In this document: in pieces, positions 4,269 through 64,000 of the stretch
How positions within the stretch are numbered: position 1 is the first letter of the stretch
How the letters are laid out: the number at the start of each line of letters is the position of its first letter
Assembly (NCBI RefSeq): GCF_900220965.1
Contig: NZ_OBQC01000006.1
Span: 1-64,000, forward strand
DNA from: Ureibacillus acetophenoni
GTDB taxonomy: Bacteria; Bacillota; Bacilli; Bacillales_A; Planococcaceae
DNA length: 64,000 nucleotides
Direction: 5' to 3'
The notes under the pieces: generated by a model
Told to the model about the DNA's origin: nothing
The model's input: the letters and a program-made list of their open reading frames with translations, nothing else
Database searches by the model: none
Program-made: the position numbers and the translations under genes

Positions 4269-4664
4269 ATTTGCTTCCTCCGTTTAAGTTTTCTCATTTC
4301 ATCGATTCGCAGTCGATGAATTTAGAATATTTTGAATCTAGTGAGTATACGCTATCTTACAGTCACAAAGTTTGTTAGTCAATAAGATTCAGAGCCTGAT
4401 AATTCACTAAATTATTATAGATTCATTCTAGCATATTAATTTAGTGCTTTAAAGTGCTAAATTTTTTAAATTTTAAATAAAATTATGATTTTTCATACAA
4501 AATCGTCACCTAAACCTCCATCTTTTTAATTATATTGACCTAATTCTATATATCTGTTAATATACTAAATTGTGCGTTTTCTATTTGGCAGCATGAATTT
4601 CAGTCTAATACAATACGACTTTCGTACTTATAATAGTGCAAATGACGCGATATTGATCACGCGC
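4269..4664. other. Divergent intergenic region between ABC operon and queT
   Basis: About 400 AT-rich bases between divergent genes. It holds the small hairpin 4298-4318 in the leader of the binding-protein gene and a TTTAG/CTAAA dyad around 4440-4470. I saw no open frame with a ribosome site and no T-box. Confidence 0.5.
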
Positions 4665-4704
4665 ACCGTGGTTCGAAACCATCCCACGAAAAAAAACTAA
4701 GGAG
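4665..4704 (+). promoter_or_regulatory. preQ1-I riboswitch
   Basis: Stem P1 pairs 4667-4671 (CGTGG) with 4684-4688 (CCACG), the loop begins TTCGAAACC, and the A-rich tail AAAAAACTAAGG follows at 4691-4702. This is the class I preQ1 aptamer architecture. The tail contains the AAGGAG ribosome site of queT, so preQ1 binding should hide it and repress translation. The location in front of a queuosine-precursor transporter supports the call. Confidence 0.88.
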
Positions 4705-4712
4705 AAATGAAT

Positions 4713-5324: not shown

Positions 5325-5675
5325 CGGATACGGAGAAAGGTTGCGGTAGCGCGACCACCGTTAGAGCAGAGCTTAGCCTGAGTTTAGATGAGAATAGCCG
5401 AGTAAATTGATGAATAAGAATAGTAGCGAAAATCGTATGGTTAAGAGAGCTAGTGGTTGGTGTGAACTAGTGCATACCTTTCGTGAATGGGTCTTATGAG
5501 AGCAGCTGGCGTAAGTTGGCTGACGTCTTTCCTACGTTATAAGGAAGTGTTTATTTAGTTATAACACTATATAAACACACCAAGGTGGAAGTAACTCGTT
5601 TACTTCAACAGAGGTGGCAACGCGGTATAAATCGTCCTCTACAAAAGGTATTTTCCTTTTGTAGAGGGCTTTTTT
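5325..5675 (+). promoter_or_regulatory. T-box leader of the trp operon
   Basis: The leader carries a T-box-like core GAGGTGGCAACGCGG at 5611-5625, followed by a strong terminator stem (CCTCTACAAAAGG, 5636-5648, with CCTTTTGTAGAGG, 5655-5667, then T-run). An upstream Stem I region includes GAATGGGTC, whose TGG at 5488-5490 fits a tryptophan specifier codon. Uncharged tRNA-Trp should stabilise the antiterminator and switch on trpDCFBA. The exact 5' boundary and specifier assignment were made by eye. Confidence 0.85.
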
Positions 5676-8175: not shown

Positions 8176-9371
8176 TGACTACTACAACTACTAAAAAAGG
8201 TCGATTCGGTCGTTTTGGAGGACAATTTGTTCCTGAAACGTTGATGACTGCATTACAAGAACTCGAGGAAGCTTATGACAAATTTAAAAATGATGAAGAA
8301 TTTCAAAATGAACTTAACTATTACTTAAAGAATTACGTCGGTCGAGAAACTCCTCTTTATTTCGCAGAGCGACTAACAGCTCAGTTCGGTGGTGCAAAAA
8401 TTTACTTAAAACGTGAGGATTTAAACCATACTGGTGCACACAAAATTAATAACGCTTTAGGTCAAGCGCTCCTTGCAAAACGTATGGGCAAAAATAAAAT
8501 CGTTGCAGAAACTGGGGCTGGTCAACATGGTGTTGCCACTGCTACTGCGTGTGCCCTACTTGGTATGGAATGTATCGTTTATATGGGTGCTGAAGATGTG
8601 AAGCGTCAAGCATTAAACGTATTCCGTATGGAGCTACTTGGCACAAAGGTAGTTGGAGTTGAAAAAGGTTCTGCGACTTTAAAAGATGCAGTGAATGAAG
8701 CACTTCGTCACTGGGTAACAAATATTGAAGATACGCACTACATTTTAGGTTCTGCTATGGGACCTCACCCGTTCCCTACTATTGTTCGTGACTTCCAACG
8801 TGTCATTGGGGATGAAACTCGTAAACAAATATTAGAAGTAGAAAACCGTTTACCAGATGCTGTTGTTGCATGTATTGGTGGAGGTAGTAATTCAATTGGT
8901 ATGTTCTACCCATTCGTCGAAGATTCAGATGTTGCATTATACGGTGTAGAAGCTGCTGGACATGGTATTGAAACTGGTAAACATGCTGCTGCTATTAATG
9001 GCGGTCAAACAGGCGTTTTACACGGAGCATTTATGTATTTGTTGCAAGACGAAAACGGCTTTGTGCAAGAGGCTCATTCCATTTCTGCAGGTTTAGATTA
9101 CCCTGGCGTTGGACCAGAGCATTGTCATCTACATGATTCTGGTCGTGCCACTTACGTTAATATTACGGACGACGAAGCATTAGAAGGTGTAAAACTCCTA
9201 TGCAAAACTGAAGGAATCCTTCCTGCCCTGGAAAGTGCCCATGCTATTGCTTACGCTTCAAAATTAGCAAAAACAATGTCTCCTGATGAGATTCTTGTCA
9301 TCTGTTTATCGGGTCGTGGAGATAAAGATGTTCATACCATTTCTTCTGCACTTGGAGGTGACTTAACATGA
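8175..9371 (+). CDS. trpB: Tryptophan synthase beta chain
   Basis: A 398-aa PLP enzyme joining indole and serine. The PLP lysine lies in [13 protein letters not shown], the phosphate loop is [10 protein letters not shown], and the C-terminal SGRGDKD is present. The start is at 8175 ([10 protein letters not shown]), sharing the A of the trpF stop; the longer frame from 8148 lies inside trpF. It overlaps trpA by 4 nt (ATGA), as expected for subunits of one complex that channel indole. Confidence 0.96.
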
Positions 9372-47688: not shown

Positions 47689-47856
47689 TATTTAAACCTC
47701 CGTATAAAAAAGACGTGTTTTTATATAACTTTCTACAGTTCTAATTTTGCCAAATATATGTATTACATCCCATCGCATTAGCTTTCAATTTCATTACATT
47801 GATGTAAGTTTTCTGTTTCCTTGGACTAGCAGAATATTACAAATGAGTAAATTTTC

Positions 47857-48097
47857 AGAATTGTTTGTGCACCTGGTACATGAAATATTCTGAATTGCTT
47901 GCGTACCTGGTACCCAAAATATTCTGAATTGTTTGCGTACCTTGTTTGCGTACCTGGTACCCGAAATATTTTGAATTGTTTGCGTACCTGGTACCCGAAA
48001 TATTCTGAATTGTTTGCGTACCTGGCACCCGAAATATTCCGAATTGTTTGTGTACCTGGTACCCGGTATATTCTGAATTGTTTGTGTACCTGGTACC
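47857..48097. repeat. 34-bp tandem repeat with GTACCTGGTAC core
   Basis: Eight cores start at 47869, 47903, 47937 (truncated), 47950, 47984, 48018, 48052 and 48086. Spacing is 34 bp throughout except for one 13-bp slippage between 47937 and 47950. The core GTACCTGGTAC is palindromic around its central base, and units read GAATTGTTTGCGTACCTGGT.. with AAATATTC between cores. The same core makes the hairpins around kbl. The array ends 88 nt before the dipeptidase start. Confidence 0.93.
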
Positions 48098-57060: not shown

Positions 57061-58313
57061 TTATCGATTAAATATGAAAGTTTCATCTGTGATTGGGGCT
57101 ACTTTGGCTTTCGCATACGATGATCCTTTTTGTGAAAAGAAGTCGTATGTTGATCCTTCATTGCGAATACCGTTCATAACGATTGGGTTCACTTCTTCTT
57201 CAGGGAACATCGCCTCAAAGCCAATATTCATTAATGCCTTATTTGCATTATAATGGATATAAGCTTTCACTTCATGTGATAAACCTGTTTCAGCGTAAAC
57301 ATCCTCAGTATACTTTACTTCATTTAAATATAAATCTAGTAATAGTTCATAACCCCAAACTCTTAACTCATCTTGTTGCTCTTTTGAGAATTGATTGAAA
57401 AGATTCTGTGCGAAGAAGCCAACTGCTACTCCGTGGATTGATTCGTCCAAATATGTTCACATAAGTTCGTCAGACTTATGCCGCATTTTATGCTGCTTAT
57501 AATTTCTTATAAGTTCAGACCATTTCATACATATTTAATATGTCTCTCCGCTTCGAACACCATTATTGACTTGTGCTCTACTCTACTCACTTCCATGCAT
57601 TGCACGTGTTTTCGATGGTCGTTGCACCTTATTGATTGTAAATGGACAATCAATCTTGGCTCAAGATTGCCCTCGTCCTTTACGTTAGGGTGTTTCTTGA
57701 ATTCAAAGAGTTTTACTTGCGCCACAATTTAACGCAAGATTAGCGAAATAATTTCAGCACTATTTCGTAATGTGCCTTGTCCACCTAAATACAATGGATA
57801 GAAAAATCCTGAATAGAATAAAAATGATTCAAGCATTACAGATGCGTACATTGCTTTCCATAAGCTTTCAGGATTGCCTTCTTCGATACTGTTATAGATT
57901 TCACTAATTTTATTTGCTTTGTACTGTAAGAATTCATTGTTCTTCACCCATTCAAATAGCTCGTCAATTTCGGAGTTTTTGCATAGGGTTGTGAATATAT
58001 AAGAATATGATTTTGCGTGAATGGCTTCAAAGGATCCAAAGACAGTTAAAACAGCTTTTTCCTGCAAATCTGTTACATGGGCTGCTATTTCATTCATCCC
58101 TATATTGGTTTGAACTGTATCGAGTAATGTAAGCCCCGCTAAAACTTTTTTGTAAGTCTCTTGATACTCGAAGCTTTGCCATTGCTTTACGTCTTTCGAT
58201 ACAGCGATTTCTTCGGGAAACCAAATTTGTTTCCACTGTTGTTCCCAGAACACTTGGGCTAGTTCACTCGTTGGTTTATTCCAATTAACTGCTTCATAGA
58301 TTAAATTTGACAT
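57061..58313 (-). CDS. nrdF: Class Ib ribonucleotide reductase small subunit, split by an intron
   Basis: Exon 1 (58313-57732) and exon 2 (57447-57061) join to a full-length NrdF of about 322 aa that holds the dimetal-tyrosyl radical cofactor. Exon 1 has [22 protein letters not shown] and ends [10 protein letters not shown]; exon 2 begins [12 protein letters not shown], holding the next metal ligands. The start at 58313 ([11 protein letters not shown]) lies 8 nt after GAGGAG inside nrdE. Between the exons the genomic frame meets TAA at once, so splicing is required for a functional protein. See the intron entry. Confidence 0.92.
57448..57731 (-). other. Group I intron in nrdF, 284 nt, no ORF
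   Basis: The boundaries obey group I rules: exon 1 ends in U (CTTGCGT, 57738-57732) and the intron ends in G (57448). An internal guide GCGCAAG (57722-57716) pairs with CTTGCGT, the last pair being the required G-U wobble (P1). GACCAT (57620-57615, within GTGCAACGACCATCG, the R-like element) pairs with ATGGTC (57523-57518, in GAAATGGTCTGAAC, the S-like element), giving P7. No homing endonuclease frame is present. The insertion sits directly before the conserved DEsIHG metal-ligand codons. Confidence 0.9.
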
Positions 58314-60394
58314 GCTACACACTCCTCAAGGGTTTGTAATCGTTGACGAACATAGTAAACGGACTTTATGCCGCGCGTCCAAGCGTAAATATAGATTTTC
58401 GCTAGTTGCTCCGTTGTCCACTGATCCGTTACATAAAGTGTCATTGATATTCCTTGGTCTACATGCTTTTGAGCTGCTGCATACAAATCAATCATGTCAT
58501 ATGGATTCACATCGTATGCTTCAACATATAAGTGAGCATTATCATTTGATAAGTGTGGCATTGGATAAATCGTTCGGCTATCCGCATAATCGCGAATTTC
58601 CACGCGTTCTGTACACGGTGCGATGGAGGCTGTGCAGGACCTTATATAACTTATGGAACCCGTTGGCGCAACTGCTAATCTATAGCTGTGGAACAGACCA
58701 TATTTCATGACATCTTCTTTTAGTGCATACCACATTTGTTTCGTGATAATCGGAATATTACCCAGAGCTTTTAAAACAACTGGCGACACTTCTTGCTCGT
58801 CTTTATTCACATATTGATTAAAATAAACTCCCGAAGCATAATCGCTGTCTTCATAACGATAGAACGTTTCCCCACGCTCTTTTGCTATTTCCATAGATGA
58901 TTTAAGAGAATAGTAGTTCATCGCTTCCATAAAGCAATCAATAAAATCGATAGAGTCTTTCGAACCGTAAAGGATTCCCTGTGTTACGAGGTGTCCATGT
59001 AAGTTCATTGCACCAAGCCCTACAGAATGCATTAGTTGATTCGCTTTTGCAACTGAAGGTACGTTCTTAATGTTTGTCATTGTTGAAACATTTGTTAGAA
59101 GGCGCATTGATGTGTCTATTAACTTCCCGAAATCTTGCACTTTGCTTGCTGCATGTATATCGATCGACCCTAAATTACACGAAACGTCTAAGCCGTATTC
59201 ATTCTGCTGATCTTGGTCGGTGATGTTGCTTGTTTGCTGTACTTGCAATATTTCTGTGCATAGATTCGACATCTTCACCCGACCAATTCCTTTCAATGGG
59301 TGGGCTTCATTTACATTATCATCGAAAATTTCGAAGGGGTATCCAGATTCAAACTGTGCCTTCTTCACTTCTGTATAAAGCTTTCGGGCATTTAGGCGCT
59401 TAATCTGACGAATGTTTGGATTGCTTAATAGCTCTTCATATATTTCAGTGATTGAAATTTCAGACATCCGTTTATCGTATTCTTTATAAATATCGTAAGG
59501 ACTAAATAGCACGATATCTTCATCTCTTCTCATGAGCTCGAAGAAAATGCTTGGTATGATAATGCCTGTGGATAAAGTTGCTAGGCGGATTTTTTCGTCG
59601 GCGTTAGGCTTTTTACTTGAAATGAAGTTTTCGATATCTGGGTGAAAAATATTTAAATAGGCGACCCCGCTACCATTTCGCTGGCCAAGCTGGTTCGAGT
59701 AAGAGAATGAATTCTCAAGTAATTTCGCTACTGGTAGCACACCGCTTGCACGATTCAAAATACCTTTAATCGGATCCCCCAAAGGTCGCAAATCTGTTAA
59801 ATTAACTCCAACACCCCCACCTAATCGTGATAATTCGAGACAGTACCCGATATTTTCAGCAATACTGTTCATTGAATCATCCATCGTTAGTTTGAAACAG
59901 CTCACTAATTCTCCGCGCGCTTTCTTCCCACTATTTAAAGCGGTTGGCGTTGCTGGTTGGTATGCATCCATCATTGCTTCCACTGCCCGTTCCGCAAGCT
60001 CTTGATTCCCTTGGGCTAAATACAATGCAATAATGACAATGCGATCTTCATATTTTTCTAGAATTTCTTTTCCATCACGACTCTTCATGGCGTAGCTGTC
60101 ATAAAATTTGCTAGCACTCATGAAAGACGGGAAACGGAAATTGTGTCGGTATGCTTTTTCGTACATTTGTTTAATAAATTCCATATCGTACAGTTCAAGA
60201 AATTCTTTTTCATAGTAGCCTTCATCTATTAAATAACGAATCTTTTCTTCAATCGTAATAAAATTTCGTAGTTTTGGATTTACATACTCCAAAAAATAAT
60301 GACGCGTTGCATCATGGTCTTTTTCTAATTCTAATTGGCCAGTTAAACTGTACTGATTTAAAACTTCATTATTTAATTGTAAGTAAGTTTTCAT
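58301..60394 (-). CDS. nrdE: Class Ib ribonucleotide reductase large subunit
   Basis: A 697-aa catalytic subunit reducing NDPs to dNDPs. The active-site set is visible: GELVSCFKL (first redox Cys), MSNLCTEIL (N-x-C-x-E, thiyl Cys), SCNLGSIDI (second redox Cys) and a C-terminal CVAC pair that exchanges electrons with NrdH. The usual class Ia ATP-cone domain is absent, as in class Ib. It overlaps nrdI by 26 nt at its start and nrdF by 13 nt at its end. Confidence 0.95.
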   Translation of the reverse strand: MKTYLQLNNEVLNQYSLTGQLELEKDHDATRHYFLEYVNPKLRNFITIEEKIRYLIDEGYYEKEFLELYDMEFIKQMYEKAYRHNFRFPSFMSASKFYDSYAMKSRDGKEILEKYEDRIVIIALYLAQGNQELAERAVEAMMDAYQPATPTALNSGKKARGELVSCFKLTMDDSMNSIAENIGYCLELSRLGGGVGVNLTDLRPLGDPIKGILNRASGVLPVAKLLENSFSYSNQLGQRNGSGVAYLNIFHPDIENFISSKKPNADEKIRLATLSTGIIIPSIFFELMRRDEDIVLFSPYDIYKEYDKRMSEISITEIYEELLSNPNIRQIKRLNARKLYTEVKKAQFESGYPFEIFDDNVNEAHPLKGIGRVKMSNLCTEILQVQQTSNITDQDQQNEYGLDVSCNLGSIDIHAASKVQDFGKLIDTSMRLLTNVSTMTNIKNVPSVAKANQLMHSVGLGAMNLHGHLVTQGILYGSKDSIDFIDCFMEAMNYYSLKSSMEIAKERGETFYRYEDSDYASGVYFNQYVNKDEQEVSPVVLKALGNIPIITKQMWYALKEDVMKYGLFHSYRLAVAPTGSISYIRSCTASIAPCTERVEIRDYADSRTIYPMPHLSNDNAHLYVEAYDVNPYDMIDLYAAAQKHVDQGISMTLYVTDQWTTEQLAKIYIYAWTRGIKSVYYVRQRLQTLEECVACQI

Positions 60395-60749
60395 TTTTCA
60401 CCCTCGTTTCGTAAAACTGTTGAATTGCATCATAATCAGCTTGAAAGCCTCTTAATTCTAATTTTCGAACTAGTGGAATTTGATAAGCTTTCGCAATTTT
60501 GTCTCCAGCTCCACCAAAGAAGCTATGGCCAAAATTGCTATTCCCACTTACGACAACCCCTTTGCATAGTTGACCATTTGCTTGAAGAAATTGCGCCACT
60601 TTTGCGGGCACTTCTCCAAGGCGATCCGTATAAGTTAATAAAAGATATGGCTTGTCCACTTTTAAGGTTTCCGTCAATTCAATCGATTCCGCTTGTAATT
60701 TAGAGACGATGTATCTTACGTTTCCAGTCCGACTTGCATAGACAATCAT
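60369..60749 (-). CDS. nrdI: NrdI flavodoxin-like protein
   Basis: A 126-aa flavodoxin-like FMN protein that supplies the oxidant for manganese cofactor assembly in NrdF. MIVYASRTGNVRYIVSKL is the FMN phosphate loop and VVVSGNSNFGHSFFGGAGDKIA the isoalloxazine loop. Its start overlaps the nrdH stop by 4 nt. Intact and of normal size. Confidence 0.94.
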   Translation of the reverse strand: MIVYASRTGNVRYIVSKLQAESIELTETLKVDKPYLLLTYTDRLGEVPAKVAQFLQANGQLCKGVVVSGNSNFGHSFFGGAGDKIAKAYQIPLVRKLELRGFQADYDAIQQFYETRVKNENLLTIK

Positions 60750-60970
60750 TGAGTTACCAGCTCAATTTTTGAAACAATCTCCTTCACATCCCCTATAAAC
60801 TCTCCGTTATGTTCAAGAACAGGCACACTTAAAAATCCAGCATTTAACACTCGTTGTTTGGCTTGTTCATCATGATCAATATTAATAACCTCTGCTTCAA
60901 TACCGGCATTCTTTAATTCAGCCTTTACCCACATGCATTTTGGGCAGATTGTTTTCGTGTACAGTTTCAT
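60746..60970 (-). CDS. nrdH: NrdH glutaredoxin-like redoxin
   Basis: A 74-aa glutaredoxin-fold protein with active site CPKC (IYTKTIC-type start MKLYTKTICPKCMWVKAEL) and the SVPVLEHNGEFIGDV loop. It reduces the NrdE C-terminal disulfide. It is the first gene of the nrd operon; AGAGGG stands 7 nt upstream of the ATG. The 5' leader before it contains the 52-bp repeat array and, beyond that, the cobalamin riboswitch. Confidence 0.92.
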   Translation of the reverse strand: MKLYTKTICPKCMWVKAELKNAGIEAEVINIDHDEQAKQRVLNAGFLSVPVLEHNGEFIGDVKEIVSKIELVTQ

Positions 60971-61009
60971 TTTTTATCCCTCTTTCTTTGTATTTAAATT
61001 GTTTCTGCT

Positions 61010-61680
61010 CTAAACGGTCTATAAAAGACATTTTGAATGGATATCGATACCCTTTTGACCTTTAAAGGACCTATTAAAGACATTCCTTTGTAAATTCCGC
61101 ATCCTTTTGTCCTTTAGAAGCCCTATTAAAGACATTACAGTTCAATTTCCGCATCCTTTTGTCCTTTAGAAGCCCTATTAAAGACATTTCAATGCAAATT
61201 CCGCACCCTTTTGTCCTTTAGAAGCTCTATTAAAGACATTACTGTGCAAATTCCGCATCCTTTTGTCCTTTAGAAGCACTATTAAAGACATTTCAATGCA
61301 AATTCCGCACCCTTTTGTCCTTTAGAAGCCCTATTAAAGACATTTCAATTCAAATTCCACATCCTTATGTCCTTTAGAAGCACTCTTAAAGACATTACTG
61401 TGCAAATTCCGCACCCTTTTGTCCTTTAGAAGCCCTATTAAAGACATTTCAATTCAAATTCCACATCCTTTTGTCCTTTAGAAGCACTCTTAAAGACATT
61501 CATTTGTAAATTCCGCACCCTTTTGTCCTTTAGAAGCCCTATTAAAGACATTACTGTGCAAATCCCGCATCCTTTTGTCCTTTAGAAGCCCTATTAAAGA
61601 CATTTCAATGCAAATTCCGCACCCTTTTGTCCTTTAGAAGCTTCTATTAAAGACATTCCAATGCAAATTCCACACCTATT
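61010..61680. repeat. 52-bp tandem repeat array, 13 units, in the nrd leader
   Basis: CCTTTTGTCC-type cores start at 61051, 61103, 61155, 61207, 61259, 61311, 61363, 61415, 61467, 61519, 61571, 61623 and 61675, exactly 52 bp apart, with partial copies at both ends. Each unit contains an imperfect dyad, GTCCTTTA about 10 nt from TTAAAGAC. Units differ by a few substitutions at fixed positions (for example CATTTCAATGCAA versus CATTACTGTGCAA). The array lies between the riboswitch terminator and nrdH, so it should be transcribed in every nrd mRNA. Confidence 0.95.
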
Positions 61681-61694
61681 TGTTCTTTTGAGCA

Positions 61695-61730
61695 AAATAA
61701 AAAGGCTATCTCTTCGAAAAGAGATAGCCT
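61695..61730 (-). terminator. Riboswitch-controlled terminator in the nrd leader
   Basis: A 12-bp perfect stem, AGGCTATCTCTT (61703-61714) with AAGAGATAGCCT (61719-61730), with a CGAA loop. On the minus strand it is followed by TTTTTATTTTG. It is the expression platform of the cobalamin riboswitch. Confidence 0.93.
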
Positions 61731-61735
61731 GGAAA

Positions 61736-61980
61736 CGTTCAGCAATTGACAAATGGATACAATAAGCTTACGTCTCCATTCCTCAATCCCCGAAGAAATG
61801 ATTGATCGGTTTTATGAGGCAGGTCTCCTGGCTTTGCTTCATCCTCCGATTCCCTTCCCATGTATATTCACACAGTGGATCATGAATCATCGTCAGCATT
61901 ACAGTTGCGGGGACAGCGTCGGATTTACACCGAACTTCCCTATTAAACTACATATAGTAGTACCTCCACAAAACTTACAC
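61736..61980 (-). promoter_or_regulatory. Cobalamin (B12) riboswitch
   Basis: On the minus strand, the aptamer shows GGGAAGTTCGGTGTAAATCC, then CTGTCCCCGCAACTGTAA, CCACTGTGTG, TGGGAAGG and the B12-box AGCCAGGAGACCTGCC, in canonical order. An intrinsic terminator follows 61730. It points at nrdHIEF-dut, implying that B12 shuts down this B12-independent reductase. Confidence 0.95.
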
Positions 61981-62152
61981 AATATATTGTTTTTAATTAC
62001 AATGGTTAGTGTACCATATACTAACAATAGAGTAAATCTATAAATCTCTTTTAGGTCTTTTAGAATAGATAAGTAAGCTTCACAATATTAAATGCCCATA
62101 AGCATCAAATTATCACGGAAATAATCATAGAGCCATTGAACTCTTCTAAAAA

Positions 62153-62187
62153 AAGAAGGGGTAGCCGTACATCTCCAGCTCCCCCTT
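62153..62187 (-). terminator. Chemoreceptor gene terminator
   Basis: An interrupted stem AAGGGG.AGC/GCT.CCCCTT (62153-62187) is followed on the minus strand by CTTTTTTTAG. Confidence 0.78.
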
Positions 62188-62194
62188 ACAAAAC

Positions 62195-64000
62195 TTAATA
62201 TTTAAATTGTTGAACTGTTTGTTTTAATCTTTCAGCCATTATAGCAAGTTCATCAGCTGAAGCTGCAATTTCCTCCATGGAAGCAAGTTGCTCTTCTGTG
62301 GAAGCTGAAATATTTTGCACACTCGCCAAGTTTGTTTGAGAAAGTTCTTGTACAATATCTGTAGCATCTGCTACTAAATTGGCGTGATGAGACATCGCTC
62401 CAGTAGCTACTGAAACTTCTTCCACTTCATTTGACACTTCAATCACATTTTCACGGATACTTGAAAACTTCTGGCCCGCTTCATTCATGACATCAATTCC
62501 TTTAGATACTTCTGCAGTACCAGCTGCCATTGTATTTACCGCTTGCTCGGTTTCAATTTGAATATGTGTAATAATGTCAGCAATCTGAGTTGTTGCTTTT
62601 GAAGATTGTTCAGCAAGTTTACGAACTTCATCTGCTACAACGGCAAAACCTTTACCAGCTTCACCAGCTCTTGCTGCCTCAATCGCTGCATTTAAAGACA
62701 ACAAGTTTGTTTGATCTGCAATTTGTTTAATAGTTTCAACAATATTACCGATGTCCGCTGAACGTTTACCTAAATTCGTAACTGCTCCTTCAATCGACTG
62801 AACAGATAAGTTAATGGATTGCATTTGCTCAACAGCCTTATGAATCGTTTCGTCACCAAGTTGTACCTCTTGTAGAGCTTGTTTTACTTTATTTGTTGCA
62901 TTATCCGCTTTTTCGGAAATCACTCTAATATTTGTTTGCATTTCCTGTGTAGCTTGGGAACTATGATTCGCAGCAACAGATTGCTGTTCAGCTCCACTTG
63001 CAAACTGTTGAATAGAGTCTACAATTTGGTTTGTTGCTTTTTGATTCTCTACTGTGCTTGCAGTTAATTCCTCAGATGAAGCGGCTAGCGTATTGGACTG
63101 TTCACTTACTTGTCGAATGACTGTTTGTAATGAGTCCACCATTTTATTAAAGATATTTGCTAACTTGCCAAATTCGTCGTCTTTTTTAAGGTCAATTTTT
63201 TCACGTAAATCGCCTTCTCCAATTCTCACAGCAGATTCACCTAATAATCGTAAGGGTCTTAAAATTGAGCGAATAATCGGGTACCCAATTAAGAATCCGA
63301 TAACAATTGAAATTAACAGTACAATTGAAGTTACTTTCAATATACTATTCGTTGCAGCAGAAACATCTTCTTTCATTAATGTTCCAACAACATACCAACC
63401 TGTTAATTCATTTTGTTTATAGAATATCTGTTTATCAACGCCATCTTCATTTATTTCAAAATTACCAATCACATTGCCTGACATGTGAGTACTATATCGC
63501 TCGTTCGCTTGGGTACCATTTTCAATAGTGGAATCAGCTAAGTAAGTTTGGTTCGCATCCATTATGGAAGCATAGCCACTCTCCCCTACTTTGATGGCTT
63601 TAGTTAAACCAACAATTGTTTCTAAATTGATGTCGATTGAAACAACACCTGAACCGTCATTTAATACAGAAGCCACTGACATCGTTAGTTGACCAGTTGC
63701 CGAAGAGATATATGGGTCAATAATTACTGGTTCCTCAGGATTGTCCATTGCACCTGTATACCACGGTCTAGTAAATGGATCATAGTCGTCATCATAACTA
63801 TAATATGGATTTCTTAAAAGATTTCTCCCTGGTTGAGCAATAGTCACTGACTCTACTCTTTCTTCAATACGATTATACTTATCTAATTCTTTTATTATCT
63901 CTTTTTCAGTCCAATGACTTGAGATAATTGTACGGTAGTACTTAGCTTGTTCAATAACCGGTCGAATCTCTTTCGTAATGAGCGTATCTAATTGTTCTAC
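62195..64000 (-). CDS. Methyl-accepting chemotaxis protein (5' end outside the window)
   Basis: The frame is open to the right edge of the window, so the N terminus is missing; about 601 aa are visible. The extracellular part is a dCache-type sensor ([33 protein letters not shown]). A transmembrane helix ([21 protein letters not shown]) is followed by a HAMP domain and a long signalling hairpin with the CheA/CheW tip ([29 protein letters not shown]). It senses an unknown small ligand and controls flagellar behaviour. The GTG at 63847 is internal, not the start. Confidence 0.93.

Follow-up and report, generated by a model that had tools for sequence, protein, structure and literature searches.

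An array of 52-bp units in the nrd leader of Ureibacillus acetophenoni is probably one copy of a dispersed hairpin-unit satellite

Results

The nrd locus and its leader

The window analysed here, a 64,000-nucleotide stretch of Ureibacillus acetophenoni DNA, carries an nrd operon with a long leader on the minus strand. First in order is a promoter-like TTTACT-17-TACACT element (62036 to 62008), recognised from the sequence and from its conservation across 19 loci, and two palindromes lie 5′ of the riboswitch (62006-62024 and 61977-61992) that may resemble NrdR boxes. A Cobalamin (B12) riboswitch aptamer follows at 61801-61982 (Rfam RF00174, 114.5 bits against a gathering threshold of 31.5 bits), and its expression platform is an intrinsic terminator stem-loop at 61703-61730, with a T-tract to about 61691, that is kept in the congeneric loci. 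Between this terminator and the first gene is a tandem array of 52-bp units (61005-61690), in which about 12 units are regular and those at either end degenerate, as judged by Tandem Repeats Finder and a listing of the units. The genes are nrdH (60746-60970; an open reading frame with tblastn matches to 22 congeneric loci), nrdI (60369-60749; an open reading frame, nrdI having been located in 23 of the 25 congeneric genomes), nrdE (58301-60394) and nrdF (57061-58322), the last two being open reading frames that are presumably nrdE and nrdF by gene position and resemblance. A group I intron (57496-57765, minus strand; Rfam, 69.2 bits) splits the apparent nrdF. Tandem Repeats Finder, Rfam and the open reading frames thus bear out the sequence-only reading, which had placed a 52-bp array here with the terminator on one side and nrdH on the other.

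Upstream of the riboswitch, three features are largely kept in 19 aligned nrd loci, of which L154 is the most deviant: TTTAC, the TACACT-like element and the second palindrome. This is so whether an array is present or absent. This conservation has two consequences: it suggests that transcription probably reaches the array by read-through of the terminator, and it argues that the array is dispensable. A consensus promoter scan of the minus strand from 60900 to 62200 found no promoter, a result that is weak evidence because the same scan also missed TTTACT-17-TACACT.

Elsewhere in the window are a PreQ1 riboswitch (4662-4706) and a T-box leader (5401-5642), both on the plus strand, and a 34-bp tandem array with a GTACCTGGTAC palindrome (47849-48097) upstream of a 460-aa open reading frame.

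Regularity of the nrd array

Tandem Repeats Finder reports the array at 61051-61688 with a period of 52, 12.2 copies, 86% matches and a score of 927, and a pattern of two cores at 52-bp distance matches eight times in the window versus none in 100 shuffles. The repeats had been described from the sequence as thirteen, exact and of a period that never varies, which overstates their regularity: there are about 12 good units with degenerate ones at both ends, only one pair among the 11 regular units is identical (61161-61212 and 61577-61628), and the unit at 61629 has 53 bp, one base extra. A core of ~28 bp is near-invariant and the remainder of the unit is variable. The imperfect dyad that had been noted in each unit is indeed present in every regular one. 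The array is non-coding, with no open reading frame of 60 aa or more (listed starts) inside it and a period that is not a multiple of three. Rfam gives nothing for the array at the gathering threshold, and at E-values up to 1 only a lncRNA model far below its own threshold.

The interval between terminator and nrdH in related genomes

The genomes in which nrdI was located provide 23 nrd loci, that of U. acetophenoni included, and the Rfam scan covered 20 of these (all but L155-L157). In 19 of these 20 loci nrdHI(EF) is preceded by a Cobalamin riboswitch and terminator, the riboswitch being absent from L151. A profile of the 52-bp unit, used at E-values up to 1, matches in three of the 23 loci, namely our own, L137 and L140, the latter two with merely two to three diverged units. 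With Tandem Repeats Finder applied to all 23 loci, an array in the slot between terminator and nrdH is found only in U. acetophenoni and in L136 (congener G010), where an array of ~21 bp (2160-2321; period 21/42/82) is unrelated to the 52-bp unit. The 19 riboswitch loci, our own included, therefore comprise three with 52-bp-type units, one with the ~21-bp array and 15 with neither, and in these last the distance from T-tract to start codon is down to about 30 nt.

Ranked by NrdI identity, the five closest congeners (80-83%) comprise L137 and L140 with their 52-bp-type units, L136 with its ~21-bp array, and two whose slot is empty. A conserved nrd role for the array is not supported, although a role confined to the U. 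acetophenoni clade may exist, because once our own locus is added to these five, 52-bp-type units are present in three of the six and the ~21-bp array in one more. Two unrelated repeat types in the slot of related species suggest that the slot tolerates insertions, and a passenger is the simplest reading. In one congener (G024, locus L141) two 52-bp copies lie upstream of the riboswitch, outside the slot, at 2657-2759; the nrdI match of another (G003, locus L143) has one in-frame TAA.

Dispersal of the 52-bp unit

The genome-wide search for the unit that the sequence-only reading had proposed finds at least 24 arrays in the U. acetophenoni genome. The 28-bp core, allowing up to three mismatches, has 80 matches in this genome and its reversed control has none. 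A covariance model (R1) gives at least 166 matches, a lower bound from scoring 150 of 2806 first-look candidates, and the matches listed fall in 22 places. Two more arrays lie on contig C9, at about 95 kb, and on contig C21, at about 78 kb. Some of the arrays are higher-order repeats in which two units alternate. In locus L019 a run of N lies within an array near 8370-8470, so array lengths in the draft assembly may be underestimates.

Within the genus, U. acetophenoni is an outlier in expansion of the tandem-core pattern (two cores 52 bp apart), with 229 matches versus 0 to 27 in 24 congeners, counted on both strands so that a single site is often scored twice. Carriers make up seven of 200 genomes of the family, all seven in the genus (229, 27, 14, 6, 4, 2 and 1 matches), and three of 398 genomes of the class, U. 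acetophenoni included. In a scan of named genomes two cores 52 bp apart occur in at least 114 stretches from at least 47 assemblies. The matches listed include Neobacillus, Metabacillus, Heyndrickxia coagulans, Alkalihalobacillus, Anaerobacillus, Pallidibacillus, Peribacillus, Salinibacillus, Scopulibacillus, Lysinibacillus endophyticus, a Ureibacillus MAG and one record named Paenibacillus; by title all those listed are Bacilli save one Bacillota MAG and one uncultured Bacillaceae. A 59-mer is common to congener G006 and Lysinibacillus endophyticus, which is now Ureibacillus endophyticus. A stricter, perfect-palindrome pattern finds single sites in four of 261 genomes and none in U. acetophenoni, because the arms of its units differ from that consensus.

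We also considered a mobile origin in viruses, plasmids or phages, and reject it: the exact tandem-core pattern has no match in viral contigs, and plasmids and phages searched with one Metabacillus array gave none.

The unit as a hairpin

Across species the unit takes the form TGTCCTTCAT-N7-ATGAAGGACA, a hairpin of ~27 nt, followed by a purine-rich linker of about 25 nt. Spacing is tightly held, with 200 of 214 intervals exactly 52 in the U. acetophenoni arrays, which were fetched without a spacing condition, and 554 of 613 in other species, where the loci were fetched by a pattern fixing the core and one 52-bp pair. Between arrays, arm identity is 0.87 in U. acetophenoni (16 arrays) and 0.89 in the other species, and linker identity is 0.46 and 0.40 respectively, versus 0.29 and 0.30 when shuffled. 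Within the class, a ~27-nt dyad every 52 bp thus seems to be kept while the linkers drift.

Covariation was tested with 60 units chosen from the arrays and 500 shuffles. Three of five measures exceed the shuffled values, none of the 500 shuffles reaching the observed figure: paired arm cells (94.0% versus 91.5%), double-change cells (17 versus 6.8) and the covariation score (0.121 versus 0.081). The other two are unremarkable (double-change pairs, 3 versus 2.1; further pair types, 5 versus 4.2). Pair 9-21 occurs as C-G, T-A and A-T, and as G-C in G022 and G010, so that all four Watson-Crick types are represented, and pairs 7-23 and 8-22 are seen both as T-A and as A-T; the outer pairs are little informative, since a unit was used only if it ended in GACA or a similar sequence. 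The two arms of the hairpin therefore tend to change together, in a compensatory manner, and a unit built on a ~27-nt hairpin with such changes is apparently new.

The unit of the window folds no better than its shuffles (z of −0.35 on the minus and −1.0 on the plus strand), whereas units from three other species fold at z of −1.7 to −3.9; the whole nrd leader folds at −6.0 (20 shuffles). Departures from the paired consensus go to G.T in 174 cases and to A.C in 132, and neither strand is clearly singled out as RNA.

Relation to the 52-nt class of Bacillus tandem repeats

Subirana and Messeguer (2021; PMC8161180) reported 4029 tandem repeats in 176 Bacillus genomes, with 1886 of 51-53 nt and 781 of 20-21 nt. 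They describe the 52-nt repeats as lacking sequence conservation, report those of B. coagulans as transcribed, note copy-number variation and merely partial conservation of arrays among B. coagulans strains, and propose nucleoid proteins or small RNAs as an explanation (PMC8161180). The nrd array fits this class. It shares the constant 51-53 nt period (52 by Tandem Repeats Finder and in the intervals given above), variable linkers, many arrays per genome with differing sequences and common short signals, a non-coding nature, and a patchy occurrence in Bacilli and so in Firmicutes. It differs from the class as described in its host genus, Ureibacillus, and in sitting inside a riboswitch leader, and the core common across genera and the covarying arms seen here contrast with the stated absence of sequence conservation.

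The published consensuses themselves bear on this point. Coagulans consensus 8_52_18 contains the core found in the nrd array, and litoralis 42_52_9 has the same core with a compensatory G-C at pair 6-24 (PMC8161180). In Table 1 of that paper, 17 of 27 consensuses, where about 1.4 would be expected, have a stem that beats its shuffles (200 mononucleotide shuffles each, p≤0.05), and 10 do not; near-duplicates (horikoshii and m3-13; thermoamylovorans 4 and 5) make the independent cases fewer than 17. The stem spans 25-29 nt in 10 of the 17. This suggests that the common feature of the class is a hairpin and not a sequence, with families that differ and some that lack it. Words containing 'palindrom' or 'terminator' do not occur in the main text of PMC8161180, and our searches of open-licence papers turned up no prior statement of a hairpin as the common feature of the class.

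The 20-21-nt class of the same survey is represented by the ~21-bp array in the G010 nrd slot and in the window at 101-1214, and differs from the 52-bp unit in period and sequence. The latter array has a TTTGCGA core, can also be read with a period of 102, and is crossed by an open reading frame (71-1216).

Two further comparisons are instructive. With B12-riboswitch nrd operons the locus shares riboswitch and terminator, the array being an extra after the terminator in a few species. With CRISPR arrays the 52-bp arrays share a conserved element of ~28 bp alternating with stretches of ~24 bp, but their 'spacers' recur within an array and so are not unique.

Position of the arrays relative to genes

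From 127 scanned sequences 129 arrays were collected, of which 44 were left out (41 without a 150-aa open reading frame on both sides and three too far). The 85 that could be classified lie between tandem (50), convergent (25) and divergent genes (10), compared with 161, 31 and 71 among 263 array-free gaps of the same sequences. The convergent excess (p 0.0003) and the divergent deficit (p 0.003; both by Fisher's test) come from mechanical open reading frame calls and from array and array-free gaps of unmatched length. Arrays favour gene 3′ ends. Between tandem genes, 34 arrays are in sense and 16 in antisense orientation (p=0.015), and in the subset with at least four units and a clear orientation the numbers are 19 and 5. 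There are 100 gene ends that face arrays, 76 of them with a gap of 15-400 bp, and in 49 of the 76 the stop codon is separated from the array by an intrinsic terminator. The corresponding figure for length-matched stretches at array-free gene ends is 94 of 215, so the enrichment is modest.

Discussion

A simple explanation for the nrd array is that it represents a 52-bp hairpin-unit satellite dispersed in many copies, here a lineage-specific passenger in the nrdHIEF leader for which a strong nrd-specific role is unlikely, and we consider this explanation a likely one. The satellite would sit, and would have expanded, in the interval that follows the conserved riboswitch terminator and precedes nrdH; insertions there would leave promoter, riboswitch, terminator and ribosome-binding site intact. 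Under low B12, with the terminator read through, the nrdHIEF leader would then carry about 680 nt of hairpin-rich RNA. The sequence-only reading had proposed possible roles for a leader array, and part of this stands, in that the transcribed strand of a probable leader does include the array. A function dedicated to nrd is not supported, given at least 24 arrays of the same unit across the genome and the 15 of 19 congeneric riboswitch loci without either array type.

What maintains such a satellite is a separate question. One reading, which we think somewhat improbable, is that it has no function and is driven by mutation, its hairpins promoting slippage and unequal exchange and its arrays growing where they do little harm. 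The patchy occurrence in family and class, the avoidance of divergent gaps, the higher-order repeats of two alternating units and the partial conservation among B. coagulans strains (PMC8161180) are as this would predict. However, the period stays at 52 though linkers are almost unrelated, the core is common to several genera, and the arms still pair after changing. Hairpin-aided neutral expansion would thus account for the patchiness and the 3′-end placement, and less well for the fixed length.

A mechanism at the level of DNA would address that length. A repeat of 52 bp corresponds to five helical turns of about 10.4 bp and one of 20-21 bp to two, so that the dyads would all lie on the same face of the helix and might build a phased platform close to the 3′ ends of genes; such spacing would matter for double-stranded DNA bound by protein and less for RNA. 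Platforms of this kind have been suggested for the BIMEs of E. coli, and REPs and BIMEs bind gyrase or IHF. The authors of the class likewise note that the length of its 20-21-nt counterpart equals two helical turns (PMC8161180). Phasing is the reason for 52 bp that we favour, as an argument from the helical turn, though taken by itself we think it less likely than not. A fuller version is more doubtful still: that the class is defined by ~27-nt DNA dyads or hairpins and not by sequence, these being repeated every five helical turns, maintained by compensatory changes and forming phased nucleoprotein or cruciform platforms behind terminators, with the 20-21-nt class as a two-turn counterpart able to fill the same slot, as may have happened at nrd in two related species.

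Equally doubtful in our estimation is an element acting as RNA, in which transcribed hairpin arrays in leaders and 3′ regions would serve, for example, in mRNA stability, as protein sponges or as sources of small RNAs. The nrd array lies on the transcribed strand, arrays between tandem genes are biased to the sense orientation (more so in the stricter subset), the whole leader folds well, the 52-nt repeats of B. coagulans are reported to be transcribed (PMC8161180), and the slight excess of G.T over A.C leans towards RNA. Yet mismatches to A.C are nearly as frequent, the unit of the window folds poorly, array orientation is not fixed, and many arrays lie beyond terminators, as at 49 of the 76 gene ends.

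A conserved, dedicated regulator of nrd coupled to the B12 riboswitch is very improbable; the place between terminator and nrdH and the related units in L137 and L140 would suit it, but most riboswitch loci have neither array type, one has an unrelated array, and at least 24 arrays of the unit occur elsewhere in the genome. Least credible of all is a REP-like element spread by a Y1/RAYT transposase: REPs are likewise palindromic, intergenic and near gene 3′ ends (PMC3733652), and U. acetophenoni has one Y1_Tnp match, but the 52-bp units run head to tail at a fixed period, their window consensus as read on either strand lacks the GTAG or CGTC tag of REPs and BIMEs, and there is no association with the GTAG-type transposase in the genus, Y1_Tnp being absent from three of the seven array carriers (G010, G022 and G023) and present in 10 of the 18 congeners without the tandem-core pattern.

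For the nrd operon, the reading of its array as one copy of a dispersed satellite carries a caution, in that an array within a riboswitch leader, however striking, can belong to a satellite spread over the whole genome and be there by chance. The survey that describes the class, in the part considered here, gives no explanation for satellites that keep their length but not their sequence (PMC8161180); if what they have in common is a hairpin with covarying arms close to the 3′ ends of genes, the question of why 52 would become a testable one.
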